A stretch of DNA of 64,000 nucleotides, from assembly GCA_937928765.1 (NCBI GenBank), contig CALFVX010000017.1, forward strand, positions 1-64,000. Reading direction: 5' to 3'. Every line of letters starts with the position of its first letter. The first letter of the stretch is position 1. Below the pieces are notes generated by a model. That model worked only from the letters and a program-made list of their open reading frames with translations, was not told the origin of the DNA and ran no database searches. Source of the DNA: an uncultured Endomicrobiia bacterium. GTDB taxonomy: Bacteria > Elusimicrobiota > Endomicrobiia > DTEH01. Shown here in pieces: positions 38,934 through 49,816 of this stretch. The position numbers and the translations under genes were made by a program.

Positions 38934-39740
38934 TCAACTTTTAAAAACTCTACTAAATAAAATACCAAAAATAAACAAAAAAACTACTATTGTAGGAGTT
39001 GATGGTAAATCTATAATGAAAGAAAAAATTAATCCTAAAATTGTTGAAACAACTGATATGATTAGATTTTTATAAATCAGTTGTTTTATATTTGGTGAAG
39101 AAATTAATGCAAAACTACATGGAATAACTAAATAACTAAAACTTAGTATTAAACCAATGCTTCTTAAAAAAAATATTATGTTTAATCCAACAATTATAAA
39201 AAAAATAAAATTTAAAATTTTATAGTTTATACCAAAAACATAACTTGTATGAGTATCTGAATACATAAAAAATAATTGTCTGTTAAACAAGATGAAAAAT
39301 ACTATGCTAACTAAAAATATAAATATGCTAAAAATTAAGTCCCAATTTTTAACTATAAGAATATTTCCTGACAAAACATCCAAAATATATGTCTCAAAAA
39401 AATTAGTTTTAGATAAAAGTAATACACTCAAAGAAAATGAAACTGCATATACTATTCCAACCAAACTGTCTTCTGAAAAATTTTTGTCTTTTTTATAGAA
39501 ACTAAACAGACATAAACCTAAAAAAGTAACTAATATCATACTTAAATACGCATTAAAAGAAATTATGATTCCTGCAACCAAACCTAAAACTGCAAGTTCT
39601 GCTATAGCTAGGGTTATAAATATTGCTCTTTTTAAAACTACAAAAATTCCTAATAAACTAAGTGTTATAGATGAAAAAATCCCTATAATTAAAGATTTTA
39701 AGAAAAGATTTTGAGTTAAATGCTCTAAAATAGTATTCAT
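38934..39740 (-). CDS. znuB: Metal (zinc-type, cluster 9) ABC transporter permease
   Basis: ABC-3 family multi-TM protein coupled to ATPase and binding-protein genes. Confidence 0.88.
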   Translation of the reverse strand: MNTILEHLTQNLFLKSLIIGIFSSITLSLLGIFVVLKRAIFITLAIAELAVLGLVAGIIISFNAYLSMILVTFLGLCLFSFYKKDKNFSEDSLVGIVYAVSFSLSVLLLSKTNFFETYILDVLSGNILIVKNWDLIFSIFIFLVSIVFFILFNRQLFFMYSDTHTSYVFGINYKILNFIFFIIVGLNIIFFLRSIGLILSFSYLVIPCSFALISSPNIKQLIYKNLIISVVSTILGLIFSFIIDLPSTPTIVVFLFIFGILFSRVFKS

Positions 39741-40480
39741 ACTTTAATAAATTTCCAATCTTCAATTTTATGAATTTTTATATCTACTTTAAAAACTTCT
39801 GATATTTTTTTTCGTAAAAAATCTATATCTTCGACTTCGTCAATTATATCAATAGCTCCATTGTATACTAAAAATAACCTATCTACATAATTTAAAACTG
39901 TTTCTAAGTTATGAGATGCAAAAATTACAGCAAAATTTTTATCTTGTTTTATATTTTTTATGAACTCAAGCACCATTTTTGTATTAAATAAATCTAAATC
40001 ATTTGTAGGCTCATCTAAAATTAATATATCTGGCTGTTTTAACAAACTTCTAAGTATTAAAACTTTTTGCTTTAATCCTCCAGATAAATTTCTATAAAGT
40101 TCAAACTTTAAATCTTTTATATTAAATTTTTCTATTATATCGTCAATTTTTTGTTTATCTTCTATCTCAAGATTTAATTTAAAATTTTTTAAAAAAGCAA
40201 ATGATAAAATTTCATAAACACTAAACGGATATGTTTCATTAATTGTAAAAATCTGTGGTACATAACCAAATTTTAAATTTCTATTTTTTATAATTTTACC
40301 TTTTAAAGGTTTAATTATACCTAAAATAGTTTTTAAAAAAGTAGTTTTACCAGATGCATTAGGACCAACTAACCCTATAAACTCACCTTCATAAATTGAA
40401 AAACTTAATCTTTCTAAAACTTTTTGTTTTTTATTATATCCACAAAAAAGATTTTTTACCTCTAAAATTTTATTTTTCAT
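39737..40480 (-). CDS. znuC: Metal ABC transporter ATP-binding protein
   Basis: GLVGPNASGKTTFLKTILG; NLSGGLKQKVLILRSLLKQPDILILDEPTNDLD. Confidence 0.92.
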   Translation of the reverse strand: MKNKILEVKNLFCGYNKKQKVLERLSFSIYEGEFIGLVGPNASGKTTFLKTILGIIKPLKGKIIKNRNLKFGYVPQIFTINETYPFSVYEILSFAFLKNFKLNLEIEDKQKIDDIIEKFNIKDLKFELYRNLSGGLKQKVLILRSLLKQPDILILDEPTNDLDLFNTKMVLEFIKNIKQDKNFAVIFASHNLETVLNYVDRLFLVYNGAIDIIDEVEDIDFLRKKISEVFKVDIKIHKIEDWKFIKV

Positions 40481-41387
40481 ACTTACATATTGCTTCTATA
40501 ATTGTATCAATTAAAGTAATATAATCTTTTATTTCTTTACTTCCGCCAACAGATAAAGCCACAACTTCATATCTTACACCAACAGATTTTGAAACAAAAT
40601 CTGTATATTTTGTTGAATAAAAATTTTCATGCAATATAACTGTTGGTTTTTCATCTTTTAATTTTTCTATTAAATATTTAATGTATTTAGGACTTGGTGG
40701 TACAGAAGGTTTTGGCTCTAAAGTTGCAATTTCTTTAAGTCCAAAGAAATCACAGAAATAGGCAAAACTTTTATGGTATGAAACGACTTTTTTGTTATTA
40801 ATCTTTGCTATTTTTTCTTTCCATATATAAACTTTTTCTTCAAGTAATTTTAAATATCTATTTTTGTTTGTCTCAAAATAACTCTTAAAATCAGGCATAA
40901 GAATAGCTAGACGTTCAGTTATGTCTTCCAAAATAATTTTTGCATTTTCAGGAGACAACCAATAGTGAGGATTACCAAATATATGAATCTCACCCATGCT
41001 AGCATCTATTTTACTCTGAGGGACTTCAAGTTTTTTTATTCTTAAAGAAACATCTAAATTACCAACTTCGCCATAGAAAACTTTTTTATTCCCTGAAGTA
41101 AAAATCAAGTTATCAACCCAACTATCTAAATCCATACCAATTCTTACAATCAAATCTGCTTTTCTTATATTAGCAACCATTGAAGGTCTTAATTCAACAT
41201 TATGCGGATTCTGCCATCCGTAACTTAAAGTTATAACTTCTGCTTTATCTTCAGCAATAACAGAAACAAAATGGGCTAAATCTTGTGTTGTTGTTACCAC
41301 ATAAATTTTATCTTTAACTTTAGAAAAACAAAAATTAAATAATATCAAACTTATAAAAAAAATCCCCCTCTTCATACTATCCTCCAA
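40470..41387 (-). CDS. znuA: Metal (zinc) ABC transporter substrate-binding protein
   Basis: VTTTQDLAHFVSVIAEDKAEVITLSYGWQNPHNVELRPS; GNPHYWLSPENAK; VSYHKSFAYF; HENFYSTKY. Confidence 0.92.
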   Translation of the reverse strand: MEDSMKRGIFFISLILFNFCFSKVKDKIYVVTTTQDLAHFVSVIAEDKAEVITLSYGWQNPHNVELRPSMVANIRKADLIVRIGMDLDSWVDNLIFTSGNKKVFYGEVGNLDVSLRIKKLEVPQSKIDASMGEIHIFGNPHYWLSPENAKIILEDITERLAILMPDFKSYFETNKNRYLKLLEEKVYIWKEKIAKINNKKVVSYHKSFAYFCDFFGLKEIATLEPKPSVPPSPKYIKYLIEKLKDEKPTVILHENFYSTKYTDFVSKSVGVRYEVVALSVGGSKEIKDYITLIDTIIEAICKYEK

Positions 41388-41425
41388 ATTAAAAAATCAA
41401 TATAATTTAGCAATTATAAAAAAAT

Positions 41426-42514
41426 TTATTCTAACATATGGCTGTGGGGACCAAAACCAAAAACAAATTGGAGATATAATCTATGATTGTTGTCTTGCTC
41501 GTTCTTATATTGTGTCCTAAAGTATGTTGATTCAGTAATGTTTCTTGTAATAACAAAACTTAGGGAAGAAAATACTTCTTTTTTTTCAAGTTCTTGTTCA
41601 TCTACAACTTTTGGTTCTTCAACATAATCTGTTCTTATTCCTAAGGCCCAATATTTAGAAATTTTGTAATCCAAAAACAAATATCCACCTAATCTGTTAT
41701 ATATTCCTAAAGGTATATCTCGGATAAGATGAAAAATTTCTGTTTGAACTTTAAAAACTTTATAAGCAGAAATTATATGTTTATAAGTGAAATCTAAACT
41801 TAATATATTAACATCATCTTTATGATAAGAAAAATCGGGGCCTTTACAAACCAAATGATTTAGTCCAAGTTCTAACTCTGAGATCTTACTTAATGGAAAA
41901 CTTAACCACAGCTTAGAATTATAACCTCTATCAGATAAAGAAAAATTTTCATTGTTATGTTCATCTTCATTATCATGGTTATGTTGATGAAACTTAGGAA
42001 TATCCCATATACCAAATGTTATTCTTGAAAAAAAATTAAAAGGTAAATTATAATTTAACCAAAAACCATCGCCAACTAAATTATGTTCACCAAAAAATTT
42101 TTTCATAAACTCTGGTTGGTCAAAATATCCTCTATGATGAGGATGAATTTTGTTTATTTTGCCAAAATCTATGTATTTTCTACCAAAATCCAAACCTAAG
42201 CCTCCAACAATTGTCTGAAAACTCACATATCCTTCATCTAGTTCAACTTCAAATATATTTTCATGTCTATGTAATGACCATATTATATCTGAACGAATTT
42301 GAGGATAAAGATAGCCTTGAAATACTAACTCTATTTCTTTTATATTTAATAAATTTTTTGATTCTTTAGAAATTTCGCTATAAAAATTACTAATTATGGA
42401 AATATCTGGAAGCTTATATAGGATATTTTTATTAGCAGATAGTGATGTTTGAGTATAAACTGTTAGGTTAAAAAATAAAGATATATATAAAAATGTTAAT
42501 AAAATGTTTTTCAT
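41426..42514 (-). CDS. Putative outer-membrane barrel protein with His-rich loop, zinc-uptake associated
   Basis: Signal peptide; alternating beta-barrel pattern; KFHQHNHDNEDEHNNEN; upstream of znuACB. Confidence 0.6.
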   Translation of the reverse strand: MKNILLTFLYISLFFNLTVYTQTSLSANKNILYKLPDISIISNFYSEISKESKNLLNIKEIELVFQGYLYPQIRSDIIWSLHRHENIFEVELDEGYVSFQTIVGGLGLDFGRKYIDFGKINKIHPHHRGYFDQPEFMKKFFGEHNLVGDGFWLNYNLPFNFFSRITFGIWDIPKFHQHNHDNEDEHNNENFSLSDRGYNSKLWLSFPLSKISELELGLNHLVCKGPDFSYHKDDVNILSLDFTYKHIISAYKVFKVQTEIFHLIRDIPLGIYNRLGGYLFLDYKISKYWALGIRTDYVEEPKVVDEQELEKKEVFSSLSFVITRNITESTYFRTQYKNEQDNNHRLYLQFVFGFGPHSHMLE

Positions 42515-44161: not shown

Positions 44162-44767
44162 CTATTTATTTTCTGTAGCAACAAAATAAATCTTTTTGTT
44201 ATCTAAAAATTCTTTTATTGTAAATTTTATTTTTTTAAACCATAAGAAAAGCTTATATTCTTCAGGCAAAAGGTCATCTTTTATAACACCACCTGTTTTT
44301 ATATGATTTTTATTAACTATATTTTTATTTTCTGAATGCACAATAACAAAATATCCTTTAGGTTTTAATACTCTTTTTATCTCTTTTAATACTTTTAACT
44401 TATAAACAAAATGTGGGAATGTATCAAAACATACAATGCAATTGAATTTTTTGTTTTTAAACGGCATATTATATGCATTAGCTTTTATATATAAAAATTT
44501 ATCGCCAAACTTTTCTTTTGCTTTATTTAACATTTTTTCTGAAAAATCTAATGCATATACTTCACCTTTATCCCCTACAATAGATTTTAAATATGGCAAC
44601 AAAATCCCTGTACCACAACCTAAATCTAATACTACATCATTATGTTTTATGAATTTTTTTAACAAAGGGAAGATTTTTTTCTCAATTATTTTTTTTCTTT
44701 TTATAAAATTTTTAGATTCTTCAGTCCAAGAGATTGCAAGATTGTCAAAAAATTGTTTTCTGTTCAT
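44162..44767 (-). CDS. Class I SAM-dependent methyltransferase
   Basis: VVLDLGCGTGILLPYL; VYALDFSEKMLNKAK; CIVCFDTFPHF; start overlaps stop of ABC permease. Confidence 0.88.
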   Translation of the reverse strand: MNRKQFFDNLAISWTEESKNFIKRKKIIEKKIFPLLKKFIKHNDVVLDLGCGTGILLPYLKSIVGDKGEVYALDFSEKMLNKAKEKFGDKFLYIKANAYNMPFKNKKFNCIVCFDTFPHFVYKLKVLKEIKRVLKPKGYFVIVHSENKNIVNKNHIKTGGVIKDDLLPEEYKLFLWFKKIKFTIKEFLDNKKIYFVATENK

Positions 44768-45561
44768 AATAGATAATTTCTTTTAGGTGATATTAATAAA
44801 CTTATAAAATAAATTAAATTTGCAAAAATAATTATAGTTGCTGCTGTAGGTAAAGATAAAAAATAAGAAATAATAAGTCCAAATATAGAAGATATCAATG
44901 CGAAAATTATTGATAAAATATACATTGTCTTTAAATTATAAGTCAGCTGATATGAAGTTAAAGCAGGCAAAGTAATCAAACTAAAAACCAAGATGCCGCC
45001 TATATAATTAAGATTTACTGCAACTGTTATACTACATAAAAACAGTAAACTATAAAAAATAAATTTTTCATATATCCCAACAGATTTAGCAATTTCACGA
45101 TTAAACAATACAGCAAAAATTTCTTTATTAAACAAAATTATAAAAATAACTATTACAATAAAAATAATGCTTAAAACAAATAAAGAAGTCCAATTTACTG
45201 CAAGAATGTTTCCCCAAAGAAAATTCAAAATTTCATTTTTTGGCCATTTGATTAATCCTGCTAAAAGAAAACTCAAACCTAAAACAAAAGAAAAAATTAT
45301 ACTTGTAGAGATGTTCAAAGAGATGTTTCCTTCTTCAGCTAAAGGTCCTATAAACATAGAAAAAGTTATGCAAAAAATTATTGATGATAGCAGTGGATTT
45401 ATATTAGATAAAATTCCAAAAATTGCACCTAAAAATGCTGAGTGTGCCATTGCAACACTTATGAAAGGAATATTTAACAATACAACCCATACGCTTACAA
45501 TACCGCAAATTATACCACTCAAAATTGAAACTAAAAAAATTCTTAAAAAAAATTGGTTCAT
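44764..45561 (-). CDS. Cluster-9 metal ABC transporter permease (second system)
   Basis: ABC-3 family; GIVSVWVVLLNIPFISVAMAHSAFLGAIFG. Confidence 0.88.
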   Translation of the reverse strand: MNQFFLRIFLVSILSGIICGIVSVWVVLLNIPFISVAMAHSAFLGAIFGILSNINPLLSSIIFCITFSMFIGPLAEEGNISLNISTSIIFSFVLGLSFLLAGLIKWPKNEILNFLWGNILAVNWTSLFVLSIIFIVIVIFIILFNKEIFAVLFNREIAKSVGIYEKFIFYSLLFLCSITVAVNLNYIGGILVFSLITLPALTSYQLTYNLKTMYILSIIFALISSIFGLIISYFLSLPTAATIIIFANLIYFISLLISPKRNYLL

Positions 45562-45564
45562 CTT

Positions 45565-46353
45565 TTAAGGATGTATAGGATCTATGTGAAAATGTCTTTT
45601 ATTGTCTATATTTTCTACTTGGACCTCACATTCATAAAGATTTGACAAAAAATCTTTTCTTAAAACTTCATCTGGTTTACCAGAGGATATTATTTTCCCA
45701 TTTTTTAAAAGTATTATTTTATTACAACAACTTTGGATATGATTTAAAATATGTGTTACACAAATTGTAGTTATATTTTTTTGCTTATAAATATTTTCTA
45801 TAATATCTAACAGCTCATATTGAGATTTTGGGTCTAAATTTGATGTTGGTTCATCTAATATTAAAATTTTTGGTTGTTGGACGAGAACTCTTGCAATGTG
45901 TACTTTTTGAAATTCTCCACCGGAAAGATGTCCTATGGGTTTTTCTGTCAAACTATCAATTTTTAAAAAACTTATTACTTCATCAATTATAATTTTATCT
46001 TCATAGTTAAGGTTCTTAAAAAATCCAAGTTTGCCAAACCTACCTAAAGAAATTATGTCTTTTACTAAAAAAGGTAGTTTTTTATCTATTAAATAATTTT
46101 GTGCTACATATCCAATTTCCTTTCTTACCTCAACAATATTTTTTCTACAAAGTTTTTTTCCAAACACATAAACCTCTCCAAAAGAAACTTTCTTTAACCC
46201 ACTTATAACATTAAGCAAAGAACTTTTACCAGCACCATTAGGTCCAATAATAGTAAGAAAAGTTTTTTCTTCTAAGTCTAAATTTATATCTTCCAATATT
46301 ATCTTTTTTTTACCATACCACAACCAAACATTTTTCAATTCTATTACTTTCAC
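45565..46353 (-). CDS. Metal ABC transporter ATP-binding protein (second system)
   Basis: TIIGPNGAGKSSLLNVISGL; HLSGGEFQKVHIARVLVQQPKILILDEPTSNLD; His-containing tail KRHFHIDPIHP. Confidence 0.92.
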   Translation of the reverse strand: MKVIELKNVWLWYGKKKIILEDINLDLEEKTFLTIIGPNGAGKSSLLNVISGLKKVSFGEVYVFGKKLCRKNIVEVRKEIGYVAQNYLIDKKLPFLVKDIISLGRFGKLGFFKNLNYEDKIIIDEVISFLKIDSLTEKPIGHLSGGEFQKVHIARVLVQQPKILILDEPTSNLDPKSQYELLDIIENIYKQKNITTICVTHILNHIQSCCNKIILLKNGKIISSGKPDEVLRKDFLSNLYECEVQVENIDNKRHFHIDPIHP

Positions 46354-47123
46354 TTCAATACCTTTTCAATTTTATAGATGTTTTCTTTAAATGTATTAAT
46401 ATAATTATCTTTTACAAAATTTGTTAAAACAATATGTTTTATTCTAAGATCTTTTGCAAGCTGTTTTGTAATTTTATAACCACTTTGTAGGTTGTCTGCT
46501 ACAAAAATAATTTTTCCATACATTGAAAAAATATTTTTGAAATCTTTTAAACTCACCTCTTCTTGTCTAGGATAAGAATATATAACTTCAAAACCTAACC
46601 AGTTAAGAAATTCTTTTTGATGTTCAGAAGAAATCACTTTATAACCTTTGTATTTTACAAATTTTTGTTTTATTTCTCTAACATACTCATTTACTTTATT
46701 TTCGTATTCTTCATAATTTTTCTCAAAGTATTCTTTATTTTCTGGCTGAAGTTCACATAGAAGTTTAAAAATTTCTTTACCAACAGTAAGATTTGTTTCT
46801 GGCAACATAAGATTTTTATCAACAGAAATTTTATAAATTTTTTTTGTTTTATCTAAAATTTTTTTCACCCAAATTTCCCAACCATGATAAATAAACAGAT
46901 CTGCATCAAAAATATTTTTTAAATCTTTTATAGACAAATCAAAATGTCCAGGACAAGTACTATAAGGTATTATGTTGATAACTTCTGCTTTATTTTTTAC
47001 AATCTCCTTAACAATTGCAGAAATATTTGTAGTAGTTGAAACAACTTTTATTTTCTTTGTTTCAGAATTAATAAACTGTGTTAAAAAAATTAATATTAAA
47101 ATAATAAACTTTATTTTTTTCAT
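46350..47123 (-). CDS. Divergent cluster-9 metal-binding ABC solute-binding protein
   Basis: KVVSTTTNISAIVKEIVKNKAEVINIIPYSTCPGHFDLSIKDLKNIFDADLFIYHGWEIWV; VISSEHQKEFLNWLGFEVI. Confidence 0.85.
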   Translation of the reverse strand: MKKIKFIILILIFLTQFINSETKKIKVVSTTTNISAIVKEIVKNKAEVINIIPYSTCPGHFDLSIKDLKNIFDADLFIYHGWEIWVKKILDKTKKIYKISVDKNLMLPETNLTVGKEIFKLLCELQPENKEYFEKNYEEYENKVNEYVREIKQKFVKYKGYKVISSEHQKEFLNWLGFEVIYSYPRQEEVSLKDFKNIFSMYGKIIFVADNLQSGYKITKQLAKDLRIKHIVLTNFVKDNYINTFKENIYKIEKVLK

Positions 47124-47129
47124 AAAAGT

Positions 47130-48935
47130 TTAAAAATTACATACTACACCTAACCCAAAAGTTCTTTTCGGCATTTGATAAATCCCACTTGCAGAAGGTA
47201 CTTCTGTATAAATTTTGTATTCTATATCAAAAATATTATCAACAGTAGCATAAATATTTAAATTTTTCATTACCTCATAATTAAGCTTTAAATTTGTAAC
47301 ATTATAATCATCAATTCTTTCTTTTACATTATTTGAAAGATAATAATACTCGCTCACATATTCGTTATACAAACTGCTACTTAATCTTCTAATATTAAAG
47401 CTTACTAAACCTACCACTTTGTTCTTAGGTTGAGCAACAACTTTGTCTTTTGTATCAATATATCCGTAACTTAGATAAAAATTTAAAAATTTCAAAGGAT
47501 TTATTTCTGTAATTATTTCTAAACCATCAAAGTCAAACTTTCCTATGTTTTTTTTCTTGCCAGAAACAACTTGTATTAAATCTTCTCCTTTCATATTAAA
47601 AACTGTAAAATCAAAATATATAATATCAAATAATTTATTTCTTACACCAAACTCTATATTTGTCACTTTTTCAGGTTTCAACTCAGTATTTGAATTATTA
47701 AAAAGGAACAAATCGTTAATATGTGGTGGTCTAAAACTGTTTGTCCAAAAGGTTCTTAGTGTTGTATTTTTAGATAATTCAAAAACAACTCCTGCTTTTG
47801 GTGTTAAAAAACTTTTAGCATATTCGTCATAATGATATCTTAAACCAAAATTAAGAGTAAATTTTTTAAACAATATATGCCTATCATCAAAATAAAGACC
47901 GTAGTCATATTTCTTATATTCTTTTAAAAAATTTTGTGGTGCACCAGAAATTACCTCGCCCCATTGGTTTCTAAAATCAAAGCCATAGGTTAAAATATTA
48001 TCTCTAAACAAAACACTATTTCCATAAACCATAACACCATCTGTTATATCTTTAGAATGCCACCCGTCAGAAAATTTGTGTTCACCAAAACTGCGATAAA
48101 ATTTTGTTGTTAAATTCATAAATTTAAAATTATCTTCATAATTTAAATCTAACGAACCACGATTATAGTCATTCCAAGTACCTACGGATGCAGGCAAAGG
48201 TTCATACTTTATACCATCAAAATATTTAAAAGAAAAATTTAGTTTTGAAGTATTAAAGAAATTATAACCTACAGATCCGCTAAAATCTGTTGCTTTATAC
48301 GAAGAATTTGTTGTATGCCCATCAGAATATCTTCTGTCTGCTGAAATAAAATAATTAAATTTAGAAAAATTTTGTCCTAACTGAAACCTACCTATTTCAG
48401 TGTTATAAGAACCACCATATAGATTTAAACTTGCTTCAAAATCTTTCTTTGTTTTTTGAGTAATAATATTAACAATACCACCAAATGCTTCAGGACCATA
48501 TACAACAGATTCTGGTCCACGAATTATTTCTATTCTGTCTACATTGTTGAAAGGCAAAGTATTAGTTACTGAACATCCAAAAATAGACATCTTATCTGGC
48601 CTACCATCTATAAAAATTCCAAGCCGTCTTCCGTTATCACCTAAACCACGAATATTTACATCTGCTCTGCCAAAAGCAGAAGTTTTTGTTATAAAAACTC
48701 CAGGGATTAATTCTAATATATCAGTCGTCTGATAAAAGTTTAAAACTTTTATATCTTCTTTAGTTAAAACAGAACATGACAACGGCAAACTTCTTATTTC
48801 CATATCATATCTTGTAGGAGTAGAAACAATTCTTTCAGCAGAAATATAAATTTCTTGTTGTTGAGCAAAAGATAAAGTCGTAAATAAAATTATTAGAACA
48901 AAAATTAAAAACATTTTCATAAATTTTACCTCCAT
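47130..48935 (-). CDS. TonB-dependent receptor in NikR-linked metal uptake operon
   Basis: Plug (RSLPLSCSVLTKEDIKVLNFYQTTDILELIPGVFITKTSAFGRADVNIRGLGDNGRRLGIFIDGRPDK) and C-terminal barrel. Confidence 0.92.
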   Translation of the reverse strand: MEVKFMKMFLIFVLIILFTTLSFAQQQEIYISAERIVSTPTRYDMEIRSLPLSCSVLTKEDIKVLNFYQTTDILELIPGVFITKTSAFGRADVNIRGLGDNGRRLGIFIDGRPDKMSIFGCSVTNTLPFNNVDRIEIIRGPESVVYGPEAFGGIVNIITQKTKKDFEASLNLYGGSYNTEIGRFQLGQNFSKFNYFISADRRYSDGHTTNSSYKATDFSGSVGYNFFNTSKLNFSFKYFDGIKYEPLPASVGTWNDYNRGSLDLNYEDNFKFMNLTTKFYRSFGEHKFSDGWHSKDITDGVMVYGNSVLFRDNILTYGFDFRNQWGEVISGAPQNFLKEYKKYDYGLYFDDRHILFKKFTLNFGLRYHYDEYAKSFLTPKAGVVFELSKNTTLRTFWTNSFRPPHINDLFLFNNSNTELKPEKVTNIEFGVRNKLFDIIYFDFTVFNMKGEDLIQVVSGKKKNIGKFDFDGLEIITEINPLKFLNFYLSYGYIDTKDKVVAQPKNKVVGLVSFNIRRLSSSLYNEYVSEYYYLSNNVKERIDDYNVTNLKLNYEVMKNLNIYATVDNIFDIEYKIYTEVPSASGIYQMPKRTFGLGVVCNF

Positions 48936-49193
48936 TATATAAAATTTTTGTTAACTTTATTAACTTACTAACTTTTTATAAATTGCATCATACTTTCTAC
49001 CAATTAAATATGAAATCAAAATAGATTAAACAACTTAATCACTATTTACTAACTTAATAAAGCTAACAACATTATATCCTTTTTTTACTTTTTCAATTTT
49101 TCGCTTCTACCAACCATCTAATTATCTTTTTATTTATCTTAATAATTATAACTTAAAAGATTACTAAGGTTAACAAATTTATAGAAATTTTAT

Positions 49194-49220
49194 GTGTTAC
49201 TTTTATAAAATTTGTGCTAC
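49194..49220 (+). promoter_or_regulatory. Candidate NikR-family operator, copy 1 (upstream of TonB receptor operon)
   Basis: GTGTTAC-N13-GTGCTAC. Confidence 0.55.
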
Positions 49221-49267
49221 TTAAATATAGATTTTACTATGTTAACTATATTATAAAATATTTACTG

Positions 49268-49675
49268 TTATAAACTTGATGTGATACTTAATGTACCGTG
49301 TTGGACACCTTTCATTGAGGAAAGATTATCTTTTAGTTGTTTTATCAAAGACGCTTTGCCTTTTACTATTATTACTTCAAGACAATGATGATGATCTAAG
49401 TGTATGTGTAAAGATGAAATAATTAACTTTTGATAGTTATGTTGAACATCAACAATTTTATCTACAAGTTCTCTTTTTTGATGATTATATACAATAGATA
49501 TTGAACCAGCAACTATTTTATCAGAAACCCAACTTTCTTTAACAAACTCAGCACGGATTAAATCTCTTATTGCTTCAGAACGATTTTTATAATTTTTACT
49601 TTTTATATATTTATCAAATCTATTAAGCAGATCTCTAGGTATTGCTACACCAAAACGTTTTAATTTTGAGTTCAT
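49268..49675 (-). CDS. nikR: NikR-family nickel-responsive ribbon-helix-helix regulator
   Basis: KRFGVAIPRDLLNRFDKYIKSKNYKNRSEAIRDLIRAEFV; metal-binding HLDHHHCLEVIIVKG; GVQHGTLSIT. Confidence 0.95.
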   Translation of the reverse strand: MNSKLKRFGVAIPRDLLNRFDKYIKSKNYKNRSEAIRDLIRAEFVKESWVSDKIVAGSISIVYNHQKRELVDKIVDVQHNYQKLIISSLHIHLDHHHCLEVIIVKGKASLIKQLKDNLSSMKGVQHGTLSITSSL

Positions 49676-49682
49676 ATTTTTA

Positions 49683-49709
49683 GTAACACAATTTTTATTT
49701 TTGTAGCAA
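49683..49709 (-). promoter_or_regulatory. Candidate NikR-family operator, copy 2 (immediately upstream of nikR)
   Basis: Minus strand TTGCTAC-N13-GTGTTAC, 7 nt upstream of nikR start codon. Confidence 0.55.
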
Positions 49710-49816
49710 AAAATTTTTTAATTTTCAATAGGTTCTAAAAATTTTTTCTTAAATTTATTTTTTACTATTAATAATTATCTTGTTTTAAAGGCTAAAATTT
49801 TATATTTTAATTTTAT

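Follow-up and report, generated by a model that had tools for sequence, protein, structure and literature searches.

The two copies of a bipartite direct repeat that adjoin nikR in the DNA analysed here (64,000 nucleotides, hereafter the window) are very likely operators of the nickel-responsive repressor encoded between them. Each would be bound by a NikR tetramer placing one symmetric dimer on each heptameric half-site, an arrangement in which the spacing of the half-sites would be fixed and their relative orientation free. This reading is built on comparisons of sequence within the window, across its genome and phylum, and among nikR loci of several phyla.

Two direct repeats beside nikR

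The sites lie upstream of nikR and of the neighbouring transport operon, and the features concerned are as follows.

49194..49220: copy 1, direct-repeat putative NikR operator GTGTTAC-N13-GTGCTAC, plus-strand spacer ttttataaaattt
49683..49709: copy 2, direct-repeat putative NikR operator GTAACAC-N13-GTAGCAA (plus strand), spacer aatttttattttt
49268..49675, minus strand: nikR, nickel-responsive ribbon-helix-helix repressor, 135 aa
47130..48935, minus strand: TonB-dependent outer membrane receptor, probably for nickel uptake, with orthologs next to nikR in several genomes
46350..47123, minus strand: ZnuA-type substrate-binding protein with CPGHFD motif
45565..46353, minus strand: ABC transporter ATPase
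44764..45561, minus strand: ABC-3 (ZnuB-type) permease
44162..44767, minus strand: class I SAM methyltransferase, last operon gene, conserved with the operon

On re-reading of the sequence, the coordinates and N13 gaps that the first-pass annotation had given for both copies were borne out, as was its description of the half-sites as standing in direct orientation, 20 bp apart, in each of them. Copy 1 (half-sites GTGTTAC and GTGCTAC) lies in the interval that separates the stop of nikR (49268) from the start of the TonB receptor gene (48935), approximately 258 nt upstream of the latter, and reads GTAGCAC-aaattttataaaa-GTAACAC towards the TonB operon. Copy 2 (half-sites GTGTTAC and TTGCTAC), which reads TTGCTAC-aaaaataaaaatt-GTGTTAC on the nikR strand, is indeed 7 nt from the nikR ATG (49675, minus strand), and its outer half-site departs from the consensus at one base (GTAGCAa), both as annotated; TTGCTAC and GTGTTAC differ in two positions.

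The nikR product is a complete Arg-Gly-Ala NikR with the beta strand RFGVA, and Geobacter NikR has a beta strand of the same Arg-Gly type as the group to which the window protein belongs. It scores 172 bits against the NCBIfam NikR model (cut-off 105), and carries an N-terminal RHH_1 domain (PF01402) above cut-off and the C-terminal nickel-binding domain NikR_C (PF08753, E=2.6e-30). Its nickel ligands H79, H90, H92 and C98 (His3Cys) are invariant in alignment A1, aligned with E. coli NikR, and its best solved relative is the NikR of PDB 2bj1.

The motif does not occur at random frequency. The pattern KTGYTAC-N13-KTGYTAC, whose K was picked after copy 2 had been seen, matched twice in the window against 0.01 expected from dinucleotide shuffles of the window, and pattern searches, which served as the genome-wide background, found no exact match beyond copies 1 and 2 anywhere in the 1.54 Mb genome. 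The signal lies in the pairing of half-sites, as single GTGTTAC half-sites were not enriched (4 versus 3.2 expected). One-mismatch matches elsewhere in the genome (8 in one search, 11 places in another) came close in number to those of the reversed-pattern control, and no further regulon members were distinguishable from control in this genome.

Spacing and orientation across nikR loci

The signal predicted for deltaproteobacterial NikR (Geobacter, Desulfovibrio) is the inverted GTGTTAC-[N13/14]-GTAACAC (PMC545781, Table 4), with which the half-site named in the first-pass annotation, GTGTTAC, agrees. The window sites share with this signal the heptamer half-site, the 13–14 nt spacing (N13 in both copies) and a place before nikR or nickel transport genes, the operon behind copy 1 being a presumed nickel importer. 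Deltaproteobacterial sites are inverted (-><-), whereas both window copies are direct (-> ->), neither inverted nor everted, and for this reason we file them as a variant and not as an ordinary operator of that type. The everted sites GTAACAC-[N13/14]-GTGTTAC predicted in 2004 in Desulfotalea psychrophila and at D. vulgaris nikK (PMC545781) resemble those of the window in that orientation varies at constant spacing, but have both half-sites flipped instead of one. Direct repeats are absent from the NikR sites of the same study, and no description of direct-repeat NikR operators was found in the literature, subscription papers on Geobacter NikR lying outside the coverage.

The E. coli NikR operator, GTATGA-N16-TCATAC (PMC7055735), also consists of two half-sites approximately two helical turns apart, to which a Ni(II)-NikR tetramer attaches with its two ribbon-helix-helix domains. 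It differs from the window sites in its half-site and in being an inverted repeat only. The NikR operators of Helicobacter pylori are poorly conserved inverted repeats. In this species NikR controls TonB-dependent nickel uptake, its regulon taking in fecA3 and further genes for uptake at the outer membrane (PMC7055735, PMC5385501); the window regulon would share this trait, with a ZnuABC-type ABC transporter as the inner-membrane partner.

For comparison, nikR loci were gathered by protein similarity, independently of the motif, and half-site pairs (GTGYTAC or its complement) were tallied by gap and orientation. Exact pairs in 128 loci were limited to N13 and N14 (N13 + N14: 21 + 1 inverted, 9 + 1 direct, 2 + 1 everted), as were those in a non-redundant set of 71 loci from several phyla with NikR below 80% identity (9 inverted, 7 + 1 direct, 2 + 1 everted). 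With at most one mismatch allowed, these 71 loci held 24 inverted, 25 direct and 8 everted pairs at N13; N14 was rare compared with N13, and any other gap yielded 0–2 pairs per orientation class. A reversed-sequence control had 3 inverted and 0 direct sites at N13. Clustering by NikR identity took the place of a stricter de-duplication by site similarity, because the motif fixes 14 of the 27 positions; the excess of direct pairs at N13 persists under both schemes.

Direct sites are present in the nikR loci of relatives, where the first-pass annotation had proposed to look for them, and were found in Elusimicrobiota, Omnitrophota, Deltaproteobacteria, Planctomycetota, Chlorobi-group and Nitrospirae bins. 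Against the reading, the close relatives G001 and G002 have no N13 site upstream of nikR, and 30 of the 71 loci have no site with at most one mismatch; the consensus or its location therefore varies. Twelve of the 71 loci combine a direct site with another geometry near one nikR, which suggests that a single NikR very probably handles more than one site geometry. Freedom of orientation, judged from these tallies, appears to be general and to extend beyond the window locus.

Across the phylum of the window, presumably Elusimicrobiota, the direct motif GTARCAC-N13-GTARCAM had exact matches in 28 of 341 genomes, namely 25 of the 89 with nikR versus 3 of the 252 lacking it; of these last three genomes, two carry a site of random appearance and one is 63% complete. 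Direct sites also lie 13–22 nt upstream of nikM-type nickel permease genes (loci L104, L147, L153, L174 and L196). The overlap with nickel genes that had been put forward as a check is thereby found, as the motif both tracks the presence of nikR and precedes nikM-type genes.

Promoter context and the transport operon

In the loci compared, sites stand immediately upstream of nikR and of the transport operon next to it. Copy 2 occupies the same location as inverted and direct sites upstream of nikR in 27 other non-redundant loci. Read in gene direction, sites before nikR were inverted (21), direct and forward (>>, 6) or everted (1), with none direct and backward (<<, 0), versus 17 <<, 9 everted, 4 inverted and 2 >> before other genes. 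In 15 of 27 nikR-upstream sites a TTGACA-like box (at least 5 of 6 bases) starts 19 nt ahead of the half-site, and in 21 of 27 it starts within one base of this position. Given this offset and a 17-nt spacer, the -10 hexamer therefore consists of the TAC of GTGYTAC and three further bases; it reads TACAAT at 8 and TACTAT at 6 of these sites (14/27). The window has the corresponding elements:

49723..49728, minus strand: putative nikR -35 box, TTGAAA, starting 19 nt ahead of the start of copy 2
49700..49705, minus strand: putative nikR -10 box, TACAAA, formed by the TAC of TTGCTAC with the three bases that follow it, separated by 17 nt from the -35 box

Copy 2 lies over a conserved nikR promoter, with the spacing seen in other nikR promoters, which lends its assignment independent support. 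Sites at nikR and at transporter genes differ in orientation, apparently because at nikR the half-site also supplies part of the -10 box; the promoter may thus dictate which way the first half-site points there. Transporter-upstream sites are preceded by a T run at -15 to -9, which copy 1 lacks. Direct sites before transporter genes, such as those of L153, L104, L084, L162 and others, have approximately seven consecutive T exactly 8 nt ahead of the first half-site, and their second half-site often ends in A instead of C (GTAGCAA), the variant of copy 2.

The TonB/ZnuABC-type operon (44162–48935), a probable nickel importer, also stands beside nikR in six other genomes (G003, G058, G049, G042, G264, where a contig end cuts the operon, and G031). 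Operon-bearing loci beyond the window are L067 and L234–L238, and seven genomes of the phylum have it in all. Direct sites lie 28–29 nt upstream of the orthologous TonB operon in G003 and G058; copy 1 lies approximately 258 nt from the TonB start, against 4–30 nt in most relatives. This distance, without a convincing promoter, is the weakest point of the case. The gap (48936–49193, approx. 258 nt) is AT-rich, and scanning the intergenic regions for promoters and terminators gave no clear signal, with no promoter assignable at copy 1 (10 promoter-like matches versus 8.5 expected). A leader riboswitch was sought in the gap because the receptor resembles BtuB, and no Rfam match was obtained before the TonB gene.

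Within the same genus, copy 1 has a near-identical counterpart, spacer included, in G002 (GTAGCAC-gaattttataaaa-GTAATAC). Its counterpart in G001 (GTAGCAC-gaattttataaaa-GTGCTAT) lies 4 nt upstream of an operon ending in nikMQO-like genes, the nikM/nikQ/nikO-like assignment being based on how the sequences look and on the usual order of such genes. Adjoining these G001 genes, L068:14213-14764 consists of regular repeats that translate to VAIPLLSGYLFA and RNPLVIGLSFRT and looks like a CRISPR array.

Proposed mechanism and alternative readings

Ribbon-helix-helix dimers are two-fold symmetric, and the E. coli NikR tetramer presents two of them approximately two turns apart. The half-site GTGYTAC is itself nearly palindromic (GTRNYAC); with symmetric dimers on such half-sites, a flip therefore need not disturb the tetramer, whereas a change of spacing would. 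The tallies bear this signature, with constant spacing and variable orientation. On the described NikR fold (PMC7055735), we propose that one Ni(II)-NikR tetramer would bind each copy, one two-fold-symmetric ribbon-helix-helix dimer sitting on each heptamer, with 20 bp, or two helical turns, between the centres of the heptamers. As each dimer, symmetric in itself, would read its own asymmetric half-site, flipping a half-site would leave the geometry of the complex unchanged, making inverted, everted and direct sites all usable. Occupancy of copy 2 would cover the nikR -10 box and cause autorepression, and that of copy 1 would repress the TonB receptor/ZnuABC-like operon, which would import nickel. 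The NikR operator of variant geometry proposed in the first-pass annotation is supported in that rarity, the loci of relatives and the tracking of nikR all agree; we infer the binding, the symmetric-dimer reason, the nickel dependence, the repression and the nickel cargo of the operon.

Three other readings were weighed against this one. NikR could bind direct sites as two separate or overlapping tetramers, each on one good and one cryptic half-site, in a tandem array. Three half-sites do stand in a row in G003 (GTAACAC-N14-GTAACAC-N13-tCAACAC), the third of them degenerate, so more than one tetramer is possible there, and the spacer of L018 contains an extra GCTAC. Yet a search at gaps of 5–23 on both sides of the 26 non-redundant direct sites found no further half-site with at most one mismatch, and the gap of direct sites is the N13 of inverted sites, an equality that independent tetramers would not demand; we regard such an array as unlikely.

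Less likely again is another regulator, encoded by a gene that accompanies nikR or metal transport genes, for instance a Fur/Zur-type or methyltransferase-linked factor. The ZnuABC-type system behind copy 1 could indeed be zinc-regulated, but the half-site and its spacing are those predicted for NikR (PMC545781), inverted and direct sites share one place in nikR promoters, and the motif follows nikR throughout the phylum and precedes nikM-type genes. That both matches are functionless products of chance in an AT-rich genome is hardly credible: the chance frequency of lone half-sites and the control-level near-matches elsewhere in the genome would fit it, but not two matches where 0.01 are expected, both beside nikR and conserved in relatives.

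Extending the operator reading of the two copies to other phyla, we are moderately inclined to think that NikR of the Arg-Gly-(Ser/Ala) type tolerates any orientation at a fixed 20 bp from centre to centre, the sample containing direct and inverted sites in roughly equal numbers, and that promoter context sets the orientation, the first half-site pointing at nikR so that its TAC falls in the -10 box and being flipped at transporter genes. Searches for NikR sites presuppose an inverted repeat and would therefore overlook over half of the present sites, among them the majority at transporter genes. Direct sites would also offer a clean test of how far a symmetric ribbon-helix-helix tetramer tolerates half-site orientation, and copy 1 would tie the TonB/ZnuABC-type operon of Elusimicrobiota to nickel.

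Two minor observations concern neighbouring or similar genes. A second ZnuABC-like cluster of the window (38934–42514), with permease, ATPase and binding protein and an outer-membrane-type protein gene upstream, is apart from the NikR-linked one and probably serves ordinary zinc uptake. In approximately 14 genomes of genus g55 (L197–L212, L222), GTAACAC-N13-GTARCAC directly precedes the gene of a conserved secreted protein of approximately 340 aa, of unassigned function and encoded away from nikR, which is a possible extra NikR target.
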